A DNA stretch of 49,236 bases, taken from positions 1-49,236 of the forward strand of contig NZ_QKOB01000015.1 in NCBI RefSeq assembly GCF_003226535.1. Reading direction: 5' to 3'. The DNA comes from Meiothermus sp. Pnk-1 (lineage in GTDB: Bacteria; Deinococcota; Deinococci; Deinococcales; Thermaceae). The notes under the pieces are model-generated. The model ran no database searches. It was given only the letters and a program-made list of their open reading frames with translations, and had not been told where the DNA came from. Positions within the stretch are counted from its first letter, which is position 1. Every line of letters begins with the position of its first letter. Position numbers and translations under genes: made by a program. Shown here piece after piece: positions 8,516 to 49,236 of this stretch.

Positions 8516-8571
8516 AAAAGCTACGGGCGGCACAGGGCCGCCCGCGAGAGCCAAAGGGCACTCCCGCAGGC
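8516..8571 (-). promoter_or_regulatory. pheS attenuator (mutually exclusive antiterminator and terminator)
   Basis: Two hairpins compete on the minus-strand RNA. The antiterminator pairs GCCTGCGGGAG (8561-8571) with CTCTCGCGGGC (8540-8550): 11 bp including two G-U pairs, with a 10-nt loop. The terminator pairs CGGGCGGC (8537-8544) with GCCGCCCG (8524-8531): 8 bp with a 5-nt loop, followed by TAGCTTTT. They share 8540-8544, so only one can form. The antiterminator 5' arm begins at the last base of the leader-peptide stop codon. A ribosome reaching the stop would cover it and let the terminator form. A ribosome stalled at the Phe codons would leave it free. The T-tract is short. Confidence 0.75.
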
Positions 8572-8597
8572 TACCTAAAAAACCACCTCCCGCGCAT
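8571..8597 (-). CDS. Predicted pheS leader peptide with tandem Phe codons
   Basis: This micro-ORF of eight codons plus TAG reads MRGRWFFR. It lies between the pheS promoter and the overlapping hairpins of the pheST leader. Codons 6 and 7 are adjacent TTT Phe codons. From the -10 box, transcription should start about 3 nt before the ATG, so translation would be leaderless. It is far too short for family comparison. The assignment rests on promoter position, Phe codons, and a stop codon that overlaps the antiterminator arm. An in-frame ATG at 8606 touches the -10 box and should not be transcribed. Confidence 0.72.
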   Translation of the reverse strand: MRGRWFFR

Positions 8598-8606
8598 ATT
8601 GGCCAT

Positions 8607-8635
8607 AGTTTACCGGCGAGCCCCCTAAAGCTCAA
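8607..8635 (-). promoter_or_regulatory. pheST promoter
   Basis: On the minus strand, TTGAGC (8630-8635) and TAAACT (8607-8612) are spaced by exactly 17 bp. The predicted start is near 8600, giving a leader of about 160 nt before pheS. Confidence 0.8.
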
Positions 8636-43147: not shown

Positions 43148-44260
43148 ATGTTAGGAGTCGGCATCGTCGGTCTTCCCAACGTGGGCAAATCCACGTTATT
43201 CAACGCCATCACCAAGGCTGGAGCCTTGGCGGCCAACTACCCCTTCGCCACCATCGACAAAAACGTAGGGGTGGTCTCCCTTTCCGACCCCCGGCTCGAG
43301 GCCCTGCAACAGCTCTTCATCAAAGGGGAGCGGGTGCCTCCCATCGTTCCCACCCACGTCGAGTTCGTGGACATTGCGGGGTTAGTAAAGGGGGCGCACA
43401 AGGGGGAGGGGTTGGGAAACCAGTTCCTGGCCAACATTCGTGAGGTGGCGGCCATTGCCCATGTGGTGCGCTGTTTTGCCGACCCCAACGTGGTGCACGT
43501 GGCCGGGCAGGTCAACCCCCTAGACGACCTCGAGACCATCAACACCGAGCTGGCGCTGGCCGACCTTTCCACGCTGGAGAAGCGCCTGGACAAGCTGCGC
43601 AAGACCGCCCGGGTGGACAAGGACGACAAGGCGCTGCTCGAGGTCCTCGAGCCCCTTCTGGCCCACCTCTCCGCAGGGAAACCGGCCCGGACCTTCCAGG
43701 CCGCCGACCCTGAGCTTTTGCAAAAAGCTGCCCGGGAGATGAGCCTCCTCACCTACAAGCCGGTCATCTACGTGGCCAACGTGGCCGAGGAAGACCTCCC
43801 GGACGGTGCCCGTAACCCCTACGTGGCCCAGGTCAAGGAGTATGCCGCCCAAGAGAGCGCAGACGTAGTGGTGGTCTCGGCCAAGATCGAGGCCGAACTG
43901 GCCGAACTCTCCGAGGAGGAAGCCGCCGAGTACCTCAAAGCCTTGGGGCTCGAGGAGTCCGGCCTGAACCGCCTGGTGCGGGTGGCCTACCGCACCCTGG
44001 GGCTCATCACGTTTTTTACCGCCGGAGAAAAAGAGGTTCGCGCCTGGACGATTCGCCAAGGCACCAAAGCGCCGCAGGCAGCCGGGGAGATCCACTCGGA
44101 CCTCGAGCGGGGTTTTATCCGGGCCGAGGTCATCGACTGGCGCCGGCTTGTCGAGGCCGGGGGCTGGACCCAGGCCAAGGAACGGGGCTGGGTGCGCAGC
44201 GAAGGCAAAGAGTACGTGGTCCAAGACGGCGATGTGATGCTGATTTTGTTCAACGTTTGA
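43148..44260 (+). CDS. ychF: Redox-responsive ATPase/GTPase YchF
   Basis: YchF is an Obg-like P-loop protein that prefers ATP, binds ribosomes and is linked to oxidative stress. The 370-residue protein has G1 GLPNVGKSTLFNAIT (residues 8-22), G3 DIAGLVKGAHKGEGLGNQFLANIREV, a G4 region KPVIYVANVAEEDL, and the C-terminal TGS domain with FFTAGEKEVRAWTIRQGTKAPQAAGEIHSDLERGFIRAEV. All are highly conserved. TACAAT (43131-43136) lies 11 nt before the ATG. Confidence 0.97.
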   Translation: MLGVGIVGLPNVGKSTLFNAITKAGALAANYPFATIDKNVGVVSLSDPRLEALQQLFIKGERVPPIVPTHVEFVDIAGLVKGAHKGEGLGNQFLANIREVAAIAHVVRCFADPNVVHVAGQVNPLDDLETINTELALADLSTLEKRLDKLRKTARVDKDDKALLEVLEPLLAHLSAGKPARTFQAADPELLQKAAREMSLLTYKPVIYVANVAEEDLPDGARNPYVAQVKEYAAQESADVVVVSAKIEAELAELSEEEAAEYLKALGLEESGLNRLVRVAYRTLGLITFFTAGEKEVRAWTIRQGTKAPQAAGEIHSDLERGFIRAEVIDWRRLVEAGGWTQAKERGWVRSEGKEYVVQDGDVMLILFNV

Positions 44261-44285
44261 GCCCGCGACGGGTCGAACGTACACT
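44257..44285 (+). promoter_or_regulatory. Promoter of the ModE-like gene
   Basis: TTGAGC (44257-44262), a 17-bp spacer and TACACT (44280-44285) lie 6 nt before the ATG at 44292. The -35 box overlaps the ychF stop codon. Confidence 0.75.
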
Positions 44286-44291
44286 AAAGCC

Positions 44292-44648
44292 ATGCGCCCC
44301 AAGGCCAAAATCTGGCTCGAGCGCGAGGACGGCTCCTATCTGATGGGGCCGGGGGCCATACATCTGCTGCGGGCGGTAGCCGAAGCGGGGAGTCTCAAAG
44401 GCGGCGCCAAGCGGATCGGGATGAGCTACCGCAAGGCCTGGGCGCAGCTCAAAGAGGCCGAGGCAACGCTGGGGTTTCCCCTCTTGCAACGGCACTCGGG
44501 CGGGGAGGGGGGTGGCGGCAGCACCCTCACCCCGGCGGCGTTGGACTTTCTCGAGCGCTACGAGCGGTTCTGCCAGGGCGCCCTACGCGACCTCGAGGCC
44601 CGCTTCCAAGACTCCTTCGCCGACTGGGGCCGTACCCTTAGCCGTTGA
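44292..44648 (+). CDS. ModE-type winged-helix regulator (single domain)
   Basis: The 118-residue protein is a LysR-like winged helix of the ModE N-terminal kind: GPGAIHLLRAVAEAGSLKGGAKRIGMSYRKAWAQLKEAEATLGFPLLQRHSGGEGGGGSTLTPAALDFLERYERF. The Gly-rich wing is typical. It lacks the molybdate-binding C-terminal domains, so it would sense nothing by itself, or works with another partner. No molybdate transporter gene is in the window. Its leaderless promoter is strong. Confidence 0.88.
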   Translation: MRPKAKIWLEREDGSYLMGPGAIHLLRAVAEAGSLKGGAKRIGMSYRKAWAQLKEAEATLGFPLLQRHSGGEGGGGSTLTPAALDFLERYERFCQGALRDLEARFQDSFADWGRTLSR

Positions 44649-44654
44649 ATGGGC

Positions 44655-45491
44655 CTAGGCGTAGGGGAAAGCCACGTCGCAGGCCGGGTCGTCGGGGCCC
44701 AGGGCATCCCAGCGGGCAAAGTAGACCTCCCGGGCCGGACCGCTCATCGGCTTGCCCTGGTCTTTTAGCCATCTCGCCACCGCGTCGTAAGCCTCCAGGA
44801 TGGCGGGGAAGTTGACCTGGGCCTTGTTGATGCGGGTAAAGGCTTCATGATGGGCGGGCTCGAGCCGCACCCGGATTCGCCCCGTGGGCTCCAGGCGGCC
44901 CGCGAAGGGCACGCAGATCTCCACCGGACCGTCGGAGTCTTCGTTGACCTGGCCATGGTAGATGACCAGCGGAGCGCCGCGCACCTCGAGGCCGGAGGCG
45001 GTGATGTGGCCGTAGAGTTCGCTGAACGCCTCCTCGATGAAACGGCTGAGGTCTTTGATATTCACCTTCCTCTGGATCGTCGCAACGTTCTGTGGGGGCA
45101 CTTCTCGGGTTTGTATCTGCGGCATGCTTCCTCCTTCACCGCCGAGGTAGCCCTCGAGGTAGCGAACGAGCGCCCGCTTGGTTTTCAGGTCTGCTTCGAC
45201 CTCTTCCCAGTACTGCCTCACCGCGCGCCTGGCCTCCACCCCTTCCAGCTCGAGCACCGCGGCGATGCGTTCGAGCGGCATCGCGAGCTGCCTCAGTAGG
45301 CCGATCAGCCGAGCCCGCTCGAGCTGGTCTTCGCGGTAGTAGCGGTAGCCCGAAGGCGCGTCCACGTAGGCGGGCGGGAGCAACCCCAGCGCGTCGTACA
45401 GCCGCAGCGCCTTGAGGGAGAGCCGCGAGCGCCGGGAGAACTCTCCAATGCTCAGGTAGGGGGTGGAGGGTTTGCTGCGGGGCTCGCTCAC
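44655..45491 (-). CDS. MerR-family regulator with GyrI-like effector domain (BmrR-like)
   Basis: The 278-residue protein has the MerR winged helix (about residues 11-80): YLSIGEFSRRSRLSLKALRLYDALGLLPPAYVDAPSGYRYYREDQLERARLI. A dimerisation helix (85-115) and a C-terminal GyrI/AraC-effector domain (about 125-278) follow. This is the plan of BmrR-type multidrug-sensing activators. GTG at 45491 lies 6 nt after TACCCT (leaderless). Its own promoter has the 19-bp spacing typical of MerR targets, so autoregulation is likely. No efflux pump gene is adjacent. Confidence 0.92.
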   Translation of the reverse strand: MSEPRSKPSTPYLSIGEFSRRSRLSLKALRLYDALGLLPPAYVDAPSGYRYYREDQLERARLIGLLRQLAMPLERIAAVLELEGVEARRAVRQYWEEVEADLKTKRALVRYLEGYLGGEGGSMPQIQTREVPPQNVATIQRKVNIKDLSRFIEEAFSELYGHITASGLEVRGAPLVIYHGQVNEDSDGPVEICVPFAGRLEPTGRIRVRLEPAHHEAFTRINKAQVNFPAILEAYDAVARWLKDQGKPMSGPAREVYFARWDALGPDDPACDVAFPYA

Positions 45492-45497
45492 GGGCTC

Positions 45498-45528
45498 AGG
45501 GTAGGGCCTGCCCTTGGGGAAAGGTCAA
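45498..45528 (-). promoter_or_regulatory. MerR-type promoter (19-bp spacer)
   Basis: On the minus strand TTGACC (45523-45528) and TACCCT (45498-45503) are 19 bp apart. MerR activators untwist such over-long spacers. A CCTT-N5-AAGG half-symmetry lies in the spacer. Confidence 0.68.
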
Positions 45529-45535
45529 GCTGCGT

Positions 45536-46174
45536 CTACCGCGGCAGGCCCACGGTGCTGGTTTGGTAGGGGCTGCACAGCTGAGGTCCGCAGACCCTGG
45601 CGCTGACCTCGAGGGCGTATACCTCGTCGCGGTTGTTGACCAGGTCGTTGATCGCGGTGTTGACCTGGGCGTAGAGCCCGCTGGTGGTCTTGTCCAGGCC
45701 TATGGCGGGGATCGGGAGGCCCAGATAATTGCCCAAAGCCGCCGGGGCCAGCGAGAGCACTACCTTGAAAGTGCCCTCGAGGATGCGGCCTGTTACCCGG
45801 AAGAAGTTGCGATCCGGCACATACACCGGGAAGCTCGCGGTGGCTGGGGTATTGGGGCTTAAGGGGGCTTCGCCTTTGATCTCGCGGGTTTTGTTCTCGT
45901 AACGGGGGGAGAGGAGGTTTCCCACCGGGGTGCGGTAGAAGAGGGTCACGGTGTACTCGGCCCGTACCGCGTCGCGGGCCACCGTCGGGTAGACCACCAG
46001 GGTGCAGACGTTGGACCCGTACTCGAGCAGGGGTCCCGGACGGTTGGACTCGCCTACGCAAGCCACGTTGAGCCGCGGGGCCTGGGCGTAGGCGCTCAAG
46101 TACTCGGGGTCGGTGTTGAGGGTGCGCGGGGCGCAGGCCACCAAAAGCAGCATCCCGGCCAGCAGCTTTTTCAT
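45536..46174 (-). CDS. Putative lipoprotein of unknown function
   Basis: The 212-residue protein starts MKKLLAGMLLLVACAP with lipobox LVAC (Cys14), so it is predicted to be lipid-anchored. The rest, predicted mainly beta, contains YTVTLFYRTPVGNLLSPRYENKT and FPVYVPDRNFFRVTGRILEGTFKVVLSLAP, with four further Cys. No family recognised. TATGGT lies 6 nt before the ATG, again leaderless. The leuS 3' hairpin follows upstream. Confidence 0.78.
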   Translation of the reverse strand: MKKLLAGMLLLVACAPRTLNTDPEYLSAYAQAPRLNVACVGESNRPGPLLEYGSNVCTLVVYPTVARDAVRAEYTVTLFYRTPVGNLLSPRYENKTREIKGEAPLSPNTPATASFPVYVPDRNFFRVTGRILEGTFKVVLSLAPAALGNYLGLPIPAIGLDKTTSGLYAQVNTAINDLVNNRDEVYALEVSARVCGPQLCSPYQTSTVGLPR

Positions 46175-46210
46175 GTTTTCACCATAACGTACCCGCCTGA
46201 GTAGTGGATT

Positions 46211-46238
46211 ACCCCCCTCGTGCAGTACCGAGGGGGGT
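46211..46238 (-). terminator. leuS downstream hairpin
   Basis: ACCCCCCTCG (46211-46220) and CGAGGGGGGT (46229-46238) form a perfect 10-bp stem with an 8-nt loop, 15 nt after the leuS stop. There is no T-tract, so termination is inferred. Confidence 0.6.
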
Positions 46239-46252
46239 CAAGGCAAGGGCGG

Positions 46253-48871
46253 TCAGCGCACCACGATGTTCAGCAGCTTCCCCGGCACGTAGATCTCCTT
46301 CACCACCTGTTTGCCCTCGAGGTGGGCTTGCACGTTGGGAATCTCGCGGGCGATACGCCGGATCTCGTCCTCGCTGGCCTCGGCGGGGACGGTGACCCTG
46401 CCGCGCACCCTGCCCGAGACCTGCACCACCAGCTCGAAGGCCTCGGCCACCAGGGCCTCTTCGTCCACGGCGGGCCAGCGGGCCGCGAAAACCGAGGTGT
46501 CGTGGAACCGGTGCCACAGCTCCTCGGCGAGGTGAGGGGCGAAGGGAGCCAGGAGCTGGATGTAGTGGAGCGTGGCCAGGCGAAACACCGGGGAGACCGG
46601 GTTTTCCTTGCGGTAGTCGTACATCGCGTTCAAAAGCTCCATCAAGGCGGCCACGGCGGTGTTGAAGCGCAGGGCCTCGATGTCCTCGCCCACCTTTTTG
46701 ATGGTCTGGTGCAGCTTCTGGTAGAGGGCTTTGTCGGCGGCACCCAGGGCCTTGGGGTCATGGAGGTCGCCCTGGGCCTTGAGTTCGGTCAGGTTCTCGA
46801 CCACCAAGCGCCAGACCCGGTTGAGGTAGCGCCAAGCCCCCTGCACGCCCTCCTCGGTCCAGATCATCTCGTTCTCGGGTGGGGCGGCGAAGAGGATGGT
46901 GATGCGGGCGATGTCGGCGCCCTGCTCCTTCACGAAGGGGCCCACCATCACCCCGTTGCCCAGGCTCTTGGACATGGTGGCGGGCTTCCAGAAGTGGAGG
47001 CTGCCGTCGTCGTGGGGGCGCAGCTCGGCCCCGCTCTTCCTGACCTCTTCCAGGCTGAGGGTCTCGGGGAGGTCCAGCTTGGCCCGGCGCTCGGAGGTCA
47101 GGAAGCGGACCTCCTGGCCCTTCACCTCTACCGGGCCCACGTCGGTCCAGCCCTGCACCATGCCCTGGGTGAAGAGGCCCTCGAAGGGTTCTTCGACCTC
47201 CACCATGCCGATGTCGTGCAGGAACTTGGTGAAAAAGCGCGAGTAGAGCAGGTGCAAGATGGCGTGCTCCACCCCGCCGATGTACTGGTCTACCGGCATC
47301 CAGAAGTTGGCCCGCTCGGGGTCGAAGGGCAGCTGCGCGTTGTGGGGGTCGGCGTAGCGCAGGAAGTACCACGACGAGTCAAAAAACGTATCCATGGTGT
47401 CGGTGTCGCGCCGGGCCTGGCCGCCGCACTTGGGGCAGTCCACCTCATAGAACTCGGGGTGGGCGGCCAGCGGGCTCTTGCCCTTAGGCCTTATGTCCTC
47501 CACGTCCTTGAGCGTGGGGAGCACCACCGGCAGCTGCTCGTAGGGCACCGGGACGATGCCGCAGCGATCGCAGTGGATCATGGGGATGGGGGTGCCCCAG
47601 TAACGCTGGCGGCTGATGAGCCAGTCGCGCAGGCGGTAGTTGACCTTGCGCTCCCCGATGCCCTTCTCCTCCATCCACTCGATGATCTTCTGCTTGGCTT
47701 CCTCGACTGAGAGCCCGTTGAGGAAGCCGGAGTTGATGGCCGGGCCGTCCTCGGTGTAGGCCTGGCCCTGCCAGCCGGCGGGGGGCTCGACGGTGCGGAT
47801 GATCTCGAGCCCAAACTTCTCGGCAAACTCCCAGTCGCGCTGGTCCTGCCCCGGCACCCCCATGATCGCCCCGGTGCCGTAGCCCGCGAGCACGTAGTCG
47901 GCGACCCAGATGGGAATTTCCTTGCCGCTCGCCGGGTTGATGGCGTAGGCCCCGGTCCACACCCCGCTCTTCTCGCGGTCCTCGCGCTGGCGCTCGACCT
48001 CGCTCTTCATCTTGGCCGCGGCCACGTAGGCTTCCACCACCTCCTTCTGCTCGGGGGTGGTGATCCGGGCCACCAGTTCGTGCTCGGGGGCCAGCACCAT
48101 GAAGGTGGCCCCGAAGATGGTGTCGGGGCGGGTGGAGAAGACCCGGATCTTGGCGTCGTGGCCCTTGACCGAGAAGTCGAACTCGGCCCCGGTGCTCTTG
48201 CCGATCCAGGCCCGCTGCATGGCCTTGACCTTCTCGGGCCAGCGCGGGAGCTTGTCGAGGTCGGCCAAGAGCCGCTCGGCGTAGTCGGTGATCTTGAGGT
48301 ACCACTGCTCGAGCTCGCGCTTCTCGACCAAGGCCCCGCTGCGCCAGCCGCGCCCGTCGATGACCTGCTCGTTGGCCAGCACGCTCTGCTCGACCGGGTC
48401 CCAGTTGACCAGGCTCTTCTTGCGGTAGGCCAGGCCTCGCTCGTACATCTTGAGGAAGATCCACTGGTTCCACTTGTAGTACTCGGGGGTGCAGGTGGTG
48501 ACCTCGCGGCTCCAGTCGTACTGGATGCCCATGAGGGCCAGCGACTCCTTCGACTGCCGGATGTTGCCATAGGTCCAGTCGGCGGGGCTCACGCCGTACT
48601 TCAAGGCCGCGTTCTCGGCGGGCAGGCCGAAGGCATCCCAGCCGAAGGGGTGCAAGACCGAGTAGCCCTGCTGGGTGCGCCATCGGGCCAGCACGTCGCC
48701 CATGGTGTAGTTCTTGAGGTGGCCCATGTGCAAGTCGCCCGAGGGATAGGGGAACATCACCAAGACGTACGACTTTTTCTCGCCGCCTTCGGTTGCTTTG
48801 AGCAGCCCGATTTCCTGCCAGTACTTCTGCCACTTGGGCTCGAGTTCGTGGGGGTTGTATTTGTCGCTCAT
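46253..48871 (-). CDS. leuS: Leucine--tRNA ligase
   Basis: This class I synthetase charges tRNA-Leu. The 872-residue protein has the HIGH-type motif [15 protein letters not shown] (about residues 37-51), the CP1 editing domain with the TRPDT region [16 protein letters not shown], and the KMSKS motif [11 protein letters not shown]. The C-terminal anticodon-binding domain ends [13 protein letters not shown]-like. A zinc-type knuckle DRCG...CPKCGG is in the central part. The ATG at 48871 has GGAGAGA upstream. Its leader contains a predicted Leu attenuator. Confidence 0.97.
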
Positions 48872-48931
48872 GAGTCTCTCCAGACGGCTCTAGCGAGTCA
48901 TTCTATGGGAAGGTGTGGGGGCCGCGGGAGT

Positions 48932-48986
48932 AAAAAACCCCCTACGCGGGCGTAGGGGGAGCTTCCCGAACCCGCGGGCTCCCCTA
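48932..48986 (-). promoter_or_regulatory. leuS attenuator (mutually exclusive antiterminator and terminator)
   Basis: On the minus-strand RNA, TAGGGGAGC (48978-48986) can pair with GCTCCCCCTA (48953-48962; one bulged C), with a further CCG/CGG inside. The terminator pairs CCCCCTACG (48951-48959) with CGTAGGGGG (48938-48946): 9 bp, a 4-nt loop, then six T (48932-48937). The antiterminator 3' arm and the terminator 5' arm share 48953-48959, so they exclude each other. The antiterminator 5' arm starts at the first base of the leader-peptide stop codon. Leu starvation would stall the ribosome 4-10 codons into the leader and leave this arm free. The terminator is canonical. Confidence 0.85.
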
Positions 48987-49016
48987 GCCTAGCGCTAGGC
49001 GCTTCACAAACCTCAT
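48984..49016 (-). CDS. Predicted leuS leader peptide with two CTA Leu codons
   Basis: Ten codons plus TAG read MRFVKRLALG. Codons 7 and 9 are both CTA, a Leu codon that appears uncommon in the genes of this window, where CTC, CTG and TTG dominate. A TATCAT box (49023-49028) ends 6 nt before the ATG, matching the leaderless pattern of many genes here. The stop codon lies in the antiterminator arm. Too short for family comparison; the call rests on position, codons and hairpin geometry. Confidence 0.78.
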   Translation of the reverse strand: MRFVKRLALG

Positions 49017-49022
49017 GAGCCC

Positions 49023-49051
49023 ATGATAACACGGTTTTGTGCACGAGAAAA
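49023..49051 (-). promoter_or_regulatory. leuS promoter
   Basis: TATCAT (49023-49028) is a fair -10 box, 6 nt before the leader ATG. The -35 region at 17-bp spacing (49046-49051) reads TTTTCT, a poor match. The probable insertion-sequence end begins about 15-20 bp further upstream and may have changed the promoter. Confidence 0.55.
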
Positions 49052-49065
49052 AAATAGCCGCGGGT

Positions 49066-49236
49066 GGGGTGTGTCCTGAAAATAGGCAAACAGCCTAAAC
49101 TGTTGGAATGAGCGAAATACGGGAACGGATGCATCAGTTGGTGGATGAGTACGAGCGGCTGGGAGAGGGGAAGAATATAGCCGAGCAGGAGTTGCTGGTG
49201 ATTGAGTTTGGCAAACAGATCCAGCGGCTGATGATG
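49066..49236 (+). mobile_element. Probable left end of an insertion sequence
   Basis: From about 49066 base composition becomes AT-richer. The stretch GGGGTGTGTCCTGAAAATAG looks like an IS terminal repeat, followed by TAGGC-AAACA-GCCTA (49083-49097) and a short ORF start. The right end is outside the window, so neither the partner repeat nor a target duplication can be checked. Confidence 0.4.
49108..49236 (+). CDS. Truncated ORF at the window edge, probable transposase N-terminus
   Basis: The ORF reads from ATG 49108 to the end without a stop: 43 codons beginning MSEIRERMHQLVDEYERLG. The sequence is helical, charged and continues ELLVIEFGKQIQRLMM. The N-terminus and the short distance from a repeat-like end suggest a transposase, perhaps of an ISKra4-like element, but this is not proven. 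An unrelated small protein is possible. Confidence 0.45.
   Translation, partial: MSEIRERMHQLVDEYERLGEGKNIAEQELLVIEFGKQIQRLMM

Follow-up and report, generated by a model that had tools for sequence, protein, structure and literature searches.

The leuS leader region of Meiothermus sp. Pnk-1

The stretch of DNA analysed here (hereafter the window) comprises 49,236 nt of Meiothermus sp. Pnk-1 (NZ_QKOB01000015.1) and includes leuS, which encodes a leucyl-tRNA synthetase of 872 aa (46253–48871, minus strand). An orthologous LeuS was matched in 100 of the 111 genomes surveyed from this phylum when the chosen cut-off was applied. All parts of the putative attenuator upstream of leuS are read on the minus strand. 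They begin with a promoter, P1, whose extended -10 element (TG-T-TATCAT; 49023–49031) consists of the box TATCAT (49028–49023) with TGT just before it; no consensus -35 is found at P1 in the minus-strand leader sequence. Exactly 6 nt past the box lies the ATG (49016) of a short leader ORF (48984–49016) that reads ATG AGG TTT GTG AAG CGC CTA GCG CTA GGC TAG and would encode the peptide MRFVKRLALG. Two of its codons are the leucine codon CTA, namely codon 7 (48996–48998), which we propose to be the regulatory one, and codon 9 (48990–48992). A G-rich element starting at the leader stop codon, TAGGGGAGC (48978–48986), can pair with GCTCCCCCTA (48953–48962) leaving one bulge, and these two elements form the 5′ and 3′ arms of a predicted antiterminator whose 3′ arm overlaps the 5′ arm of an intrinsic terminator. 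The terminator hairpin, CCCCCTACG-CCCG-CGTAGGGGG (48938–48959; -16.7 kcal/mol by folding), leads into a run of six T (48932–48937) that ends about 85 nt from the leader ATG. An earlier note on this DNA had described a -10 box with a ten-codon ORF starting 6 nt past it and had placed both antiterminator arms and the terminator with its six T at these positions, and the minus-strand sequence bears out every one of them.

Because the ATG follows the -10 box by 6 nt, transcription should start at or next to the start codon, and the leader transcript is therefore probably leaderless, so that a Shine-Dalgarno sequence would not be needed. Leaderless genes are common in this phylum, whose share of them is the highest reported (PMC3160421). 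Between the terminator and leuS, we further find a candidate second -10 element (P2; TAGAAT, 48900–48905), and a TA[ACG]AAT motif stands at a P2-like place in 18 of the 21 Meiothermus-like upstream regions (counted by reading). P2 may thus let part of leuS transcription bypass the switch in the window species. Thermus-like genomes have leuS within about 20 nt after the T run in most cases, and the attenuator therefore seems to be the only gate for leuS transcription there.

Conservation of the layout across the phylum

We surveyed the leuS upstream regions from 111 genomes of the phylum, with 49 from the Thermaceae, 12 from their nearest sister family (f4) and 39 from the deeper lineages f2, f3 and f5. 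A detector requiring a TANNNT box, a spacer of 5 to 8 nt, an ATG or GTG start and an ORF of 5 to 25 codons with an in-frame CTA matched 47/49 Thermaceae, 8/12 f4 and 20/39 f2/f3/f5 regions, compared to 32 hits among 2000 dinucleotide-shuffled versions of these regions and none among 77 leuS upstream regions from other phyla. When a terminator was required as well, 45 Thermaceae (each with the hairpin at a place like that in the window), 7 f4 and 13 f2/f3/f5 regions were retained alongside a single one of the 2000 shuffles and, again, none of the 77 controls. With looser settings (spacer of 5 to 9 nt, ORFs no longer than 40 codons), 80 leaders are recovered from 100 regions, and one more with a longer ORF (L081) was added by reading beyond it. 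In all 47 Thermaceae leaders, the TANNNT box (scored as a consensus match only) is separated from the start codon by 6 or 7 nt. The earlier note had named a lack of conservation of the leader ORF or its leucine codons in relatives as what would speak against its reading; the survey finds both kept in Meiothermus-like and Thermus-like genomes, in the sister family and in deeper lineages. From this distribution, the leuS attenuator appears to be ancestral within the sampled order.

Among the surveyed upstream regions, the leader is missing from M. rufus (L010/L102), L017, four f4 genomes and many f5 genomes. A gene for tRNA-Leu (UAA) lies directly upstream of leuS in L012, L013 and L017/L050; no leader remains beside it in L017/L050, and L012 and L013 keep the leader ORF, with no T run found after the hairpin when we looked for one. 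In one genome (G083) the start region of leuS is present twice (L063 and L099) with identical upstream sequence, in which a CTA-bearing ORF stands at an unusual spacing of 9 nt.

A constant CTA codon in a variable peptide

The peptides encoded by these leaders differ widely (e.g., MRFVKRLALG, MRFAGRLLGQLGGPC, MQGCVQLVQT, MQWFIYLELP, MFSALLTGR, MSTARLNP, VRASLRP, MTRTGLPPA and MIRSGLPRLGALLE), and the 19 Meiothermus-like leaders alone encode 18 distinct ones. What every Thermaceae leader found has in common is a CTA at codon 5 to 7, also in searches that did not require CTA. This codon makes up 4.3% of the leucine codons in the genes of the window and about 1% of those in leuS itself among Meiothermus-like and Thermus-like genomes. 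Its share of the leucine codons in the leaders is 109 of 145, a ratio that is biased upward by the preselection of leaders for CTA. Thermus-like leaders have one CTA each and, with one exception, no other leucine codon. The earlier note had pointed to both CTA codons of the ten-codon ORF, of which the first (codon 7) is universal and suitably spaced from the antiterminator, whereas the second (codon 9) is not, being missing from the Thermus-like, sister-family and other leaders.

Geometry and folding of the antiterminator

Of the 49 Thermaceae and f4 leaders that were measurable, 44 have an antiterminator core that starts 8 to 13 nt past their first CTA (about 11 nt in most of the window's own group), and this distance holds though the position of the stop codon and the length of the peptide vary. 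A ribosome with a codon in its A site reaches around 9 to 10 nt past this codon, as known from toeprint positions, which means that the antiterminator arm would be just free when a ribosome stalls at CTA. The second CTA of the window is too close to the arm, and a ribosome placed at the stop codon covers it.

Folding before the 3′ arm of the terminator has been made gives median antiterminator energies of -16 to -22 kcal/mol for a ribosome at CTA (around -17 for Meiothermus-like and -20 kcal/mol for Thermus-like leaders) versus -3 to -4.7 kcal/mol once it stands at the stop codon (around -4.7 kcal/mol for these two groups). In f5 leaders the antiterminator includes the stop codon, so that a ribosome past CTA breaks the pairing with the same outcome. 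We used this energy instead of an equilibrium probability, which proved uninformative: in an equilibrium model with the whole terminator, termination is favoured in most sequences even with the ribosome stalled at CTA, and antitermination must consequently be kinetic.

By folding, the antiterminator pairing is present nearly everywhere. When it is compared with shuffled spacers, its strength exceeds what base composition would yield in Thermus-like leaders (z of -1.9), but in the window's own group it does not (z of about -0.4). The 5′ arms of the terminator change between families, and the antiterminator window of a leader pairs better with its own arm than with most arms from other families (the median fraction of such foreign arms that pair equally well is 6%, and 20% for the Meiothermus-like group). 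Pair counts from the 23 Thermus-like leaders come from sequences too alike for covariation to be weighed.

Most Thermus-like leaders contain a third pairing between GGCCAGG just before CTA and CCTGGCC past the antiterminator arm, which is paired in nearly all of the 23 sequences. As predicted from these sequences, it is the protective stem of the textbook, and stalling of a ribosome at CTA would break it up. This protective (1:2) stem scores a mean z of -2.3 in Thermus-like leaders and is also strong in two g2 loci. Its z is around 0 in the window, and it does not rise above chance in the window or in most other leaders, being seen in few besides those of the Thermus-like and g2 groups. Such a stem is usual in textbook attenuators, though it is not required for a switch.

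An attenuator sensing charged tRNA-Leu and its alternatives

The leuS leader shows several of the features by which classical attenuators are recognised, namely an ORF with cognate codons, an adjoining promoter, a terminator before the structural gene and a fitting placement of the control codon. The earlier note had read it as a leucine leader-peptide attenuator, and this reading gains support from the ORF, the CTA codon, the promoter spacing, the terminator and the geometry as conserved across genera. Together with the codon choice and pairings that are mutually exclusive in silico, these observations make it very likely, in our view, that leuS is controlled by a classical ribosome-mediated transcription attenuator sensing charged tRNA-Leu. 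It is from sequence that we infer translation of the leader ORF, ribosome stalling, termination and a dependence on leucine. RNA polymerase would begin transcription at the leader ATG or beside it, with a 70S ribosome initiating on the 5′-terminal AUG and translating the short peptide. When Leu-tRNA reading CUA is scarce, this ribosome would stall with the CUA of codon 7 in its A site and leave UAGGGGAGC free to pair with GCUCCCCCUA, so that the terminator would be blocked and leuS transcribed. When Leu-tRNA is plentiful, the ribosome would reach the stop codon and cover UAGGGGAGC, the terminator would form, and transcription would stop around 85 nt from its start. Expression of leuS would, by this route, rise when the tRNA reading CUA is uncharged.

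The most durable alternative is that the leader monitors the general rate of translation or the decoding of rare CUA codons (e.g., the abundance or modification of the tRNA) instead of leucine supply itself. Most Thermus-like leaders do carry one rare codon, and decoding of rare codons is slow, but the amino acid encoded by CTA matches the regulated synthetase and pheS leaders bear phenylalanine codons instead, so that we regard this possibility as unlikely.

Still less probable is that the leader ORF arose by chance or senses nothing, with a terminator that belongs to an upstream unit or sets a constant level of leuS. Regulatory codons are missing from many leader genes near operons (PMC4833913), and the 87-nt leader of the window is unremarkable as a single sequence, folding no better than its shuffles (z = -0.93). 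However, the spacing of promoter and ATG, the in-frame CTA and its distance to the antiterminator are kept across genera, and a chance ORF would not be expected to retain a rare leucine codon as its peptide changes. The layout is thus more than chance across the sequences compared, and it is the comparison among relatives rather than the folding of any single sequence that makes it significant.

We give even less credence to an arrest by the nascent chain or an action of the leader peptide in trans with CTA as a bystander: other leader peptides set a precedent (e.g., peTrpL in trans, PMC7298713), but the peptides at leuS are short and variable and have the leucine of the CTA codon as their sole constant residue. 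A tRNA-binding T-box riboswitch upstream of leuS, a form of control often anticipated at aminoacyl-tRNA synthetase genes, is finally hardly credible despite T-boxes (RF00230) upstream of the presumed ileS and valS in the same genome, being contradicted both by the absence of any RF00230 match at the leuS upstream region (E up to 5 in an Rfam search of window positions 44000–49236) or, at gathering scores, in the leuS loci of ten relatives and by the span between the leader ATG and the last T of the run (around 85 nt), which is too short for a usual T-box.

Other leaders in the same genome

A candidate phenylalanine leader stands before pheS in the window (8571–8612, minus strand), where TAAACT is followed by ATG CGC GGG AGG TGG TTT TTT AGG TAG (encoding MRGRWFFR) and, after this ORF, by a terminator-like hairpin. 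Meiothermus-like relatives have similar Phe-bearing pheS leaders, as do f4, f3 and f2 genomes, and none was seen in the pheS upstream regions of Thermus-like genomes. Outside of the window, the T-box leaders of the genome lie in L182 (3688–3927, minus strand) and L183 (1186–1358, plus strand) with RF00230 E-values of 3.1e-19 and 4.9e-9, respectively, both below the gathering score, and precede two class I synthetase genes that we take to be ileS and valS. T-boxes and leader peptides thus seem to be in use side by side in the same genome.

In L185 (around 1330–1500), upstream of an apparent metS, the box TACCAT precedes a leaderless-type ORF, MEAFLAYKPGSWPGLRMVEVARR, that contains an internal ATG and is followed by a strong hairpin with a T run; it is possible that this ORF is a methionine leader. 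In L191 (around 1320–1450), an ORF encoding MILSAKKPSAGGLA with two AAA codons is followed by a hairpin and precedes a homocitrate-synthase-like gene, and it is possibly the known Thermus lysine leader.

Beyond the switch itself, we lean, with little more than even confidence, towards a broader picture in which a single rare CUA would be the whole leucine sensor of a leaderless, Shine-Dalgarno-independent attenuator that descends from the ancestor of the sampled Deinococcota. This attenuator would be part of a larger group of leaderless leader peptides (leuS, pheS and perhaps metS) that shares the control of synthetases with T-boxes (ileS and valS) in the same genomes.

Comparison with known systems

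As of 2010, the leader peptides demonstrated were said to come only from Proteobacteria and Actinobacteria, to which Firmicutes were added (PMC2965389). The earlier note knew of no leucine leader peptide described before a leucyl-tRNA synthetase gene in this phylum, and our literature search, which covered work other than the likeliest earlier prediction (Lopatovskaya et al. 2010), likewise found no leuS leader described for Thermus or its relatives and no such report for the phylum, though a leucine leader before leuS had already been predicted in Streptomyces. This kind of switch is thus known elsewhere, and the leuS case appears to be new, as far as we have found, for the phylum of the Thermaceae. 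It would extend leuS leader-peptide attenuation from Actinobacteria, where it is predicted, to a phylum rich in leaderless genes and over many genera. An invariant CUA at a near-fixed distance from the antiterminator would constitute a minimal and genetically simple sensor that is testable in Thermus, and it raises the questions of whether one codon is enough and whether leaderless initiation alters the coupling of transcription and translation.

The leader-peptide attenuators predicted at leuS of Streptomyces coelicolor and S. avermitilis (PMC1262725) share with ours a short ORF with leucine codons before leuS, a hairpin with a U run and the prediction of classical attenuation, and LeuL2 of S. 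lividans (MRAVRLLLSEPR) is also transcribed leaderless, with a hairpin and U run behind it (PMC8079986). Unlike our leaders, these belong to another phylum, and LeuL2, which we liken to them from the published peptide only, has three adjacent leucines compared to one or two CTA codons in most of our leaders.

The leu operon attenuator of enterobacteria (RF00512) is likewise ribosome-mediated and uses rare CUA control codons, but it controls biosynthesis and not a synthetase. The enterobacterial leu leader is longer, with several leucine codons. Membership of our leaders in the Rfam family Leu_leader (RF00512) was rejected, since its covariance model, like those of all other Rfam families, found no match in window positions 44000–49236 or, at gathering scores, in the leuS loci of ten relatives. 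In Salmonella, the control codons of the leu leader are CUA, and changing them to CUG lowered its sensitivity (Carter et al., as described in PMC1183508). The gamma-proteobacterial pheST leader (cited in PMC1262725) resembles the leuS case in that a leader peptide controls an aminoacyl-tRNA synthetase operon, but responds to phenylalanine instead of leucine and stems from another phylum.

Within the same phylum, the leader of the lysine cluster in Thermus thermophilus works by leader-peptide attenuation as well, and unlike the leuS leader it uses lysine codons and serves a biosynthetic gene cluster. This leader peptide (hcs cluster) was reportedly described by Tsubouchi et al. in 2005 in J Biol Chem. 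T-box leaders (RF00230), lastly, also sense tRNA charging and control synthetase genes by termination or antitermination, but they bind the tRNA directly and have no ORF, and none is found at leuS. One genome would thus combine two sensors of charging, the T-box and the leader peptide, for related synthetases.
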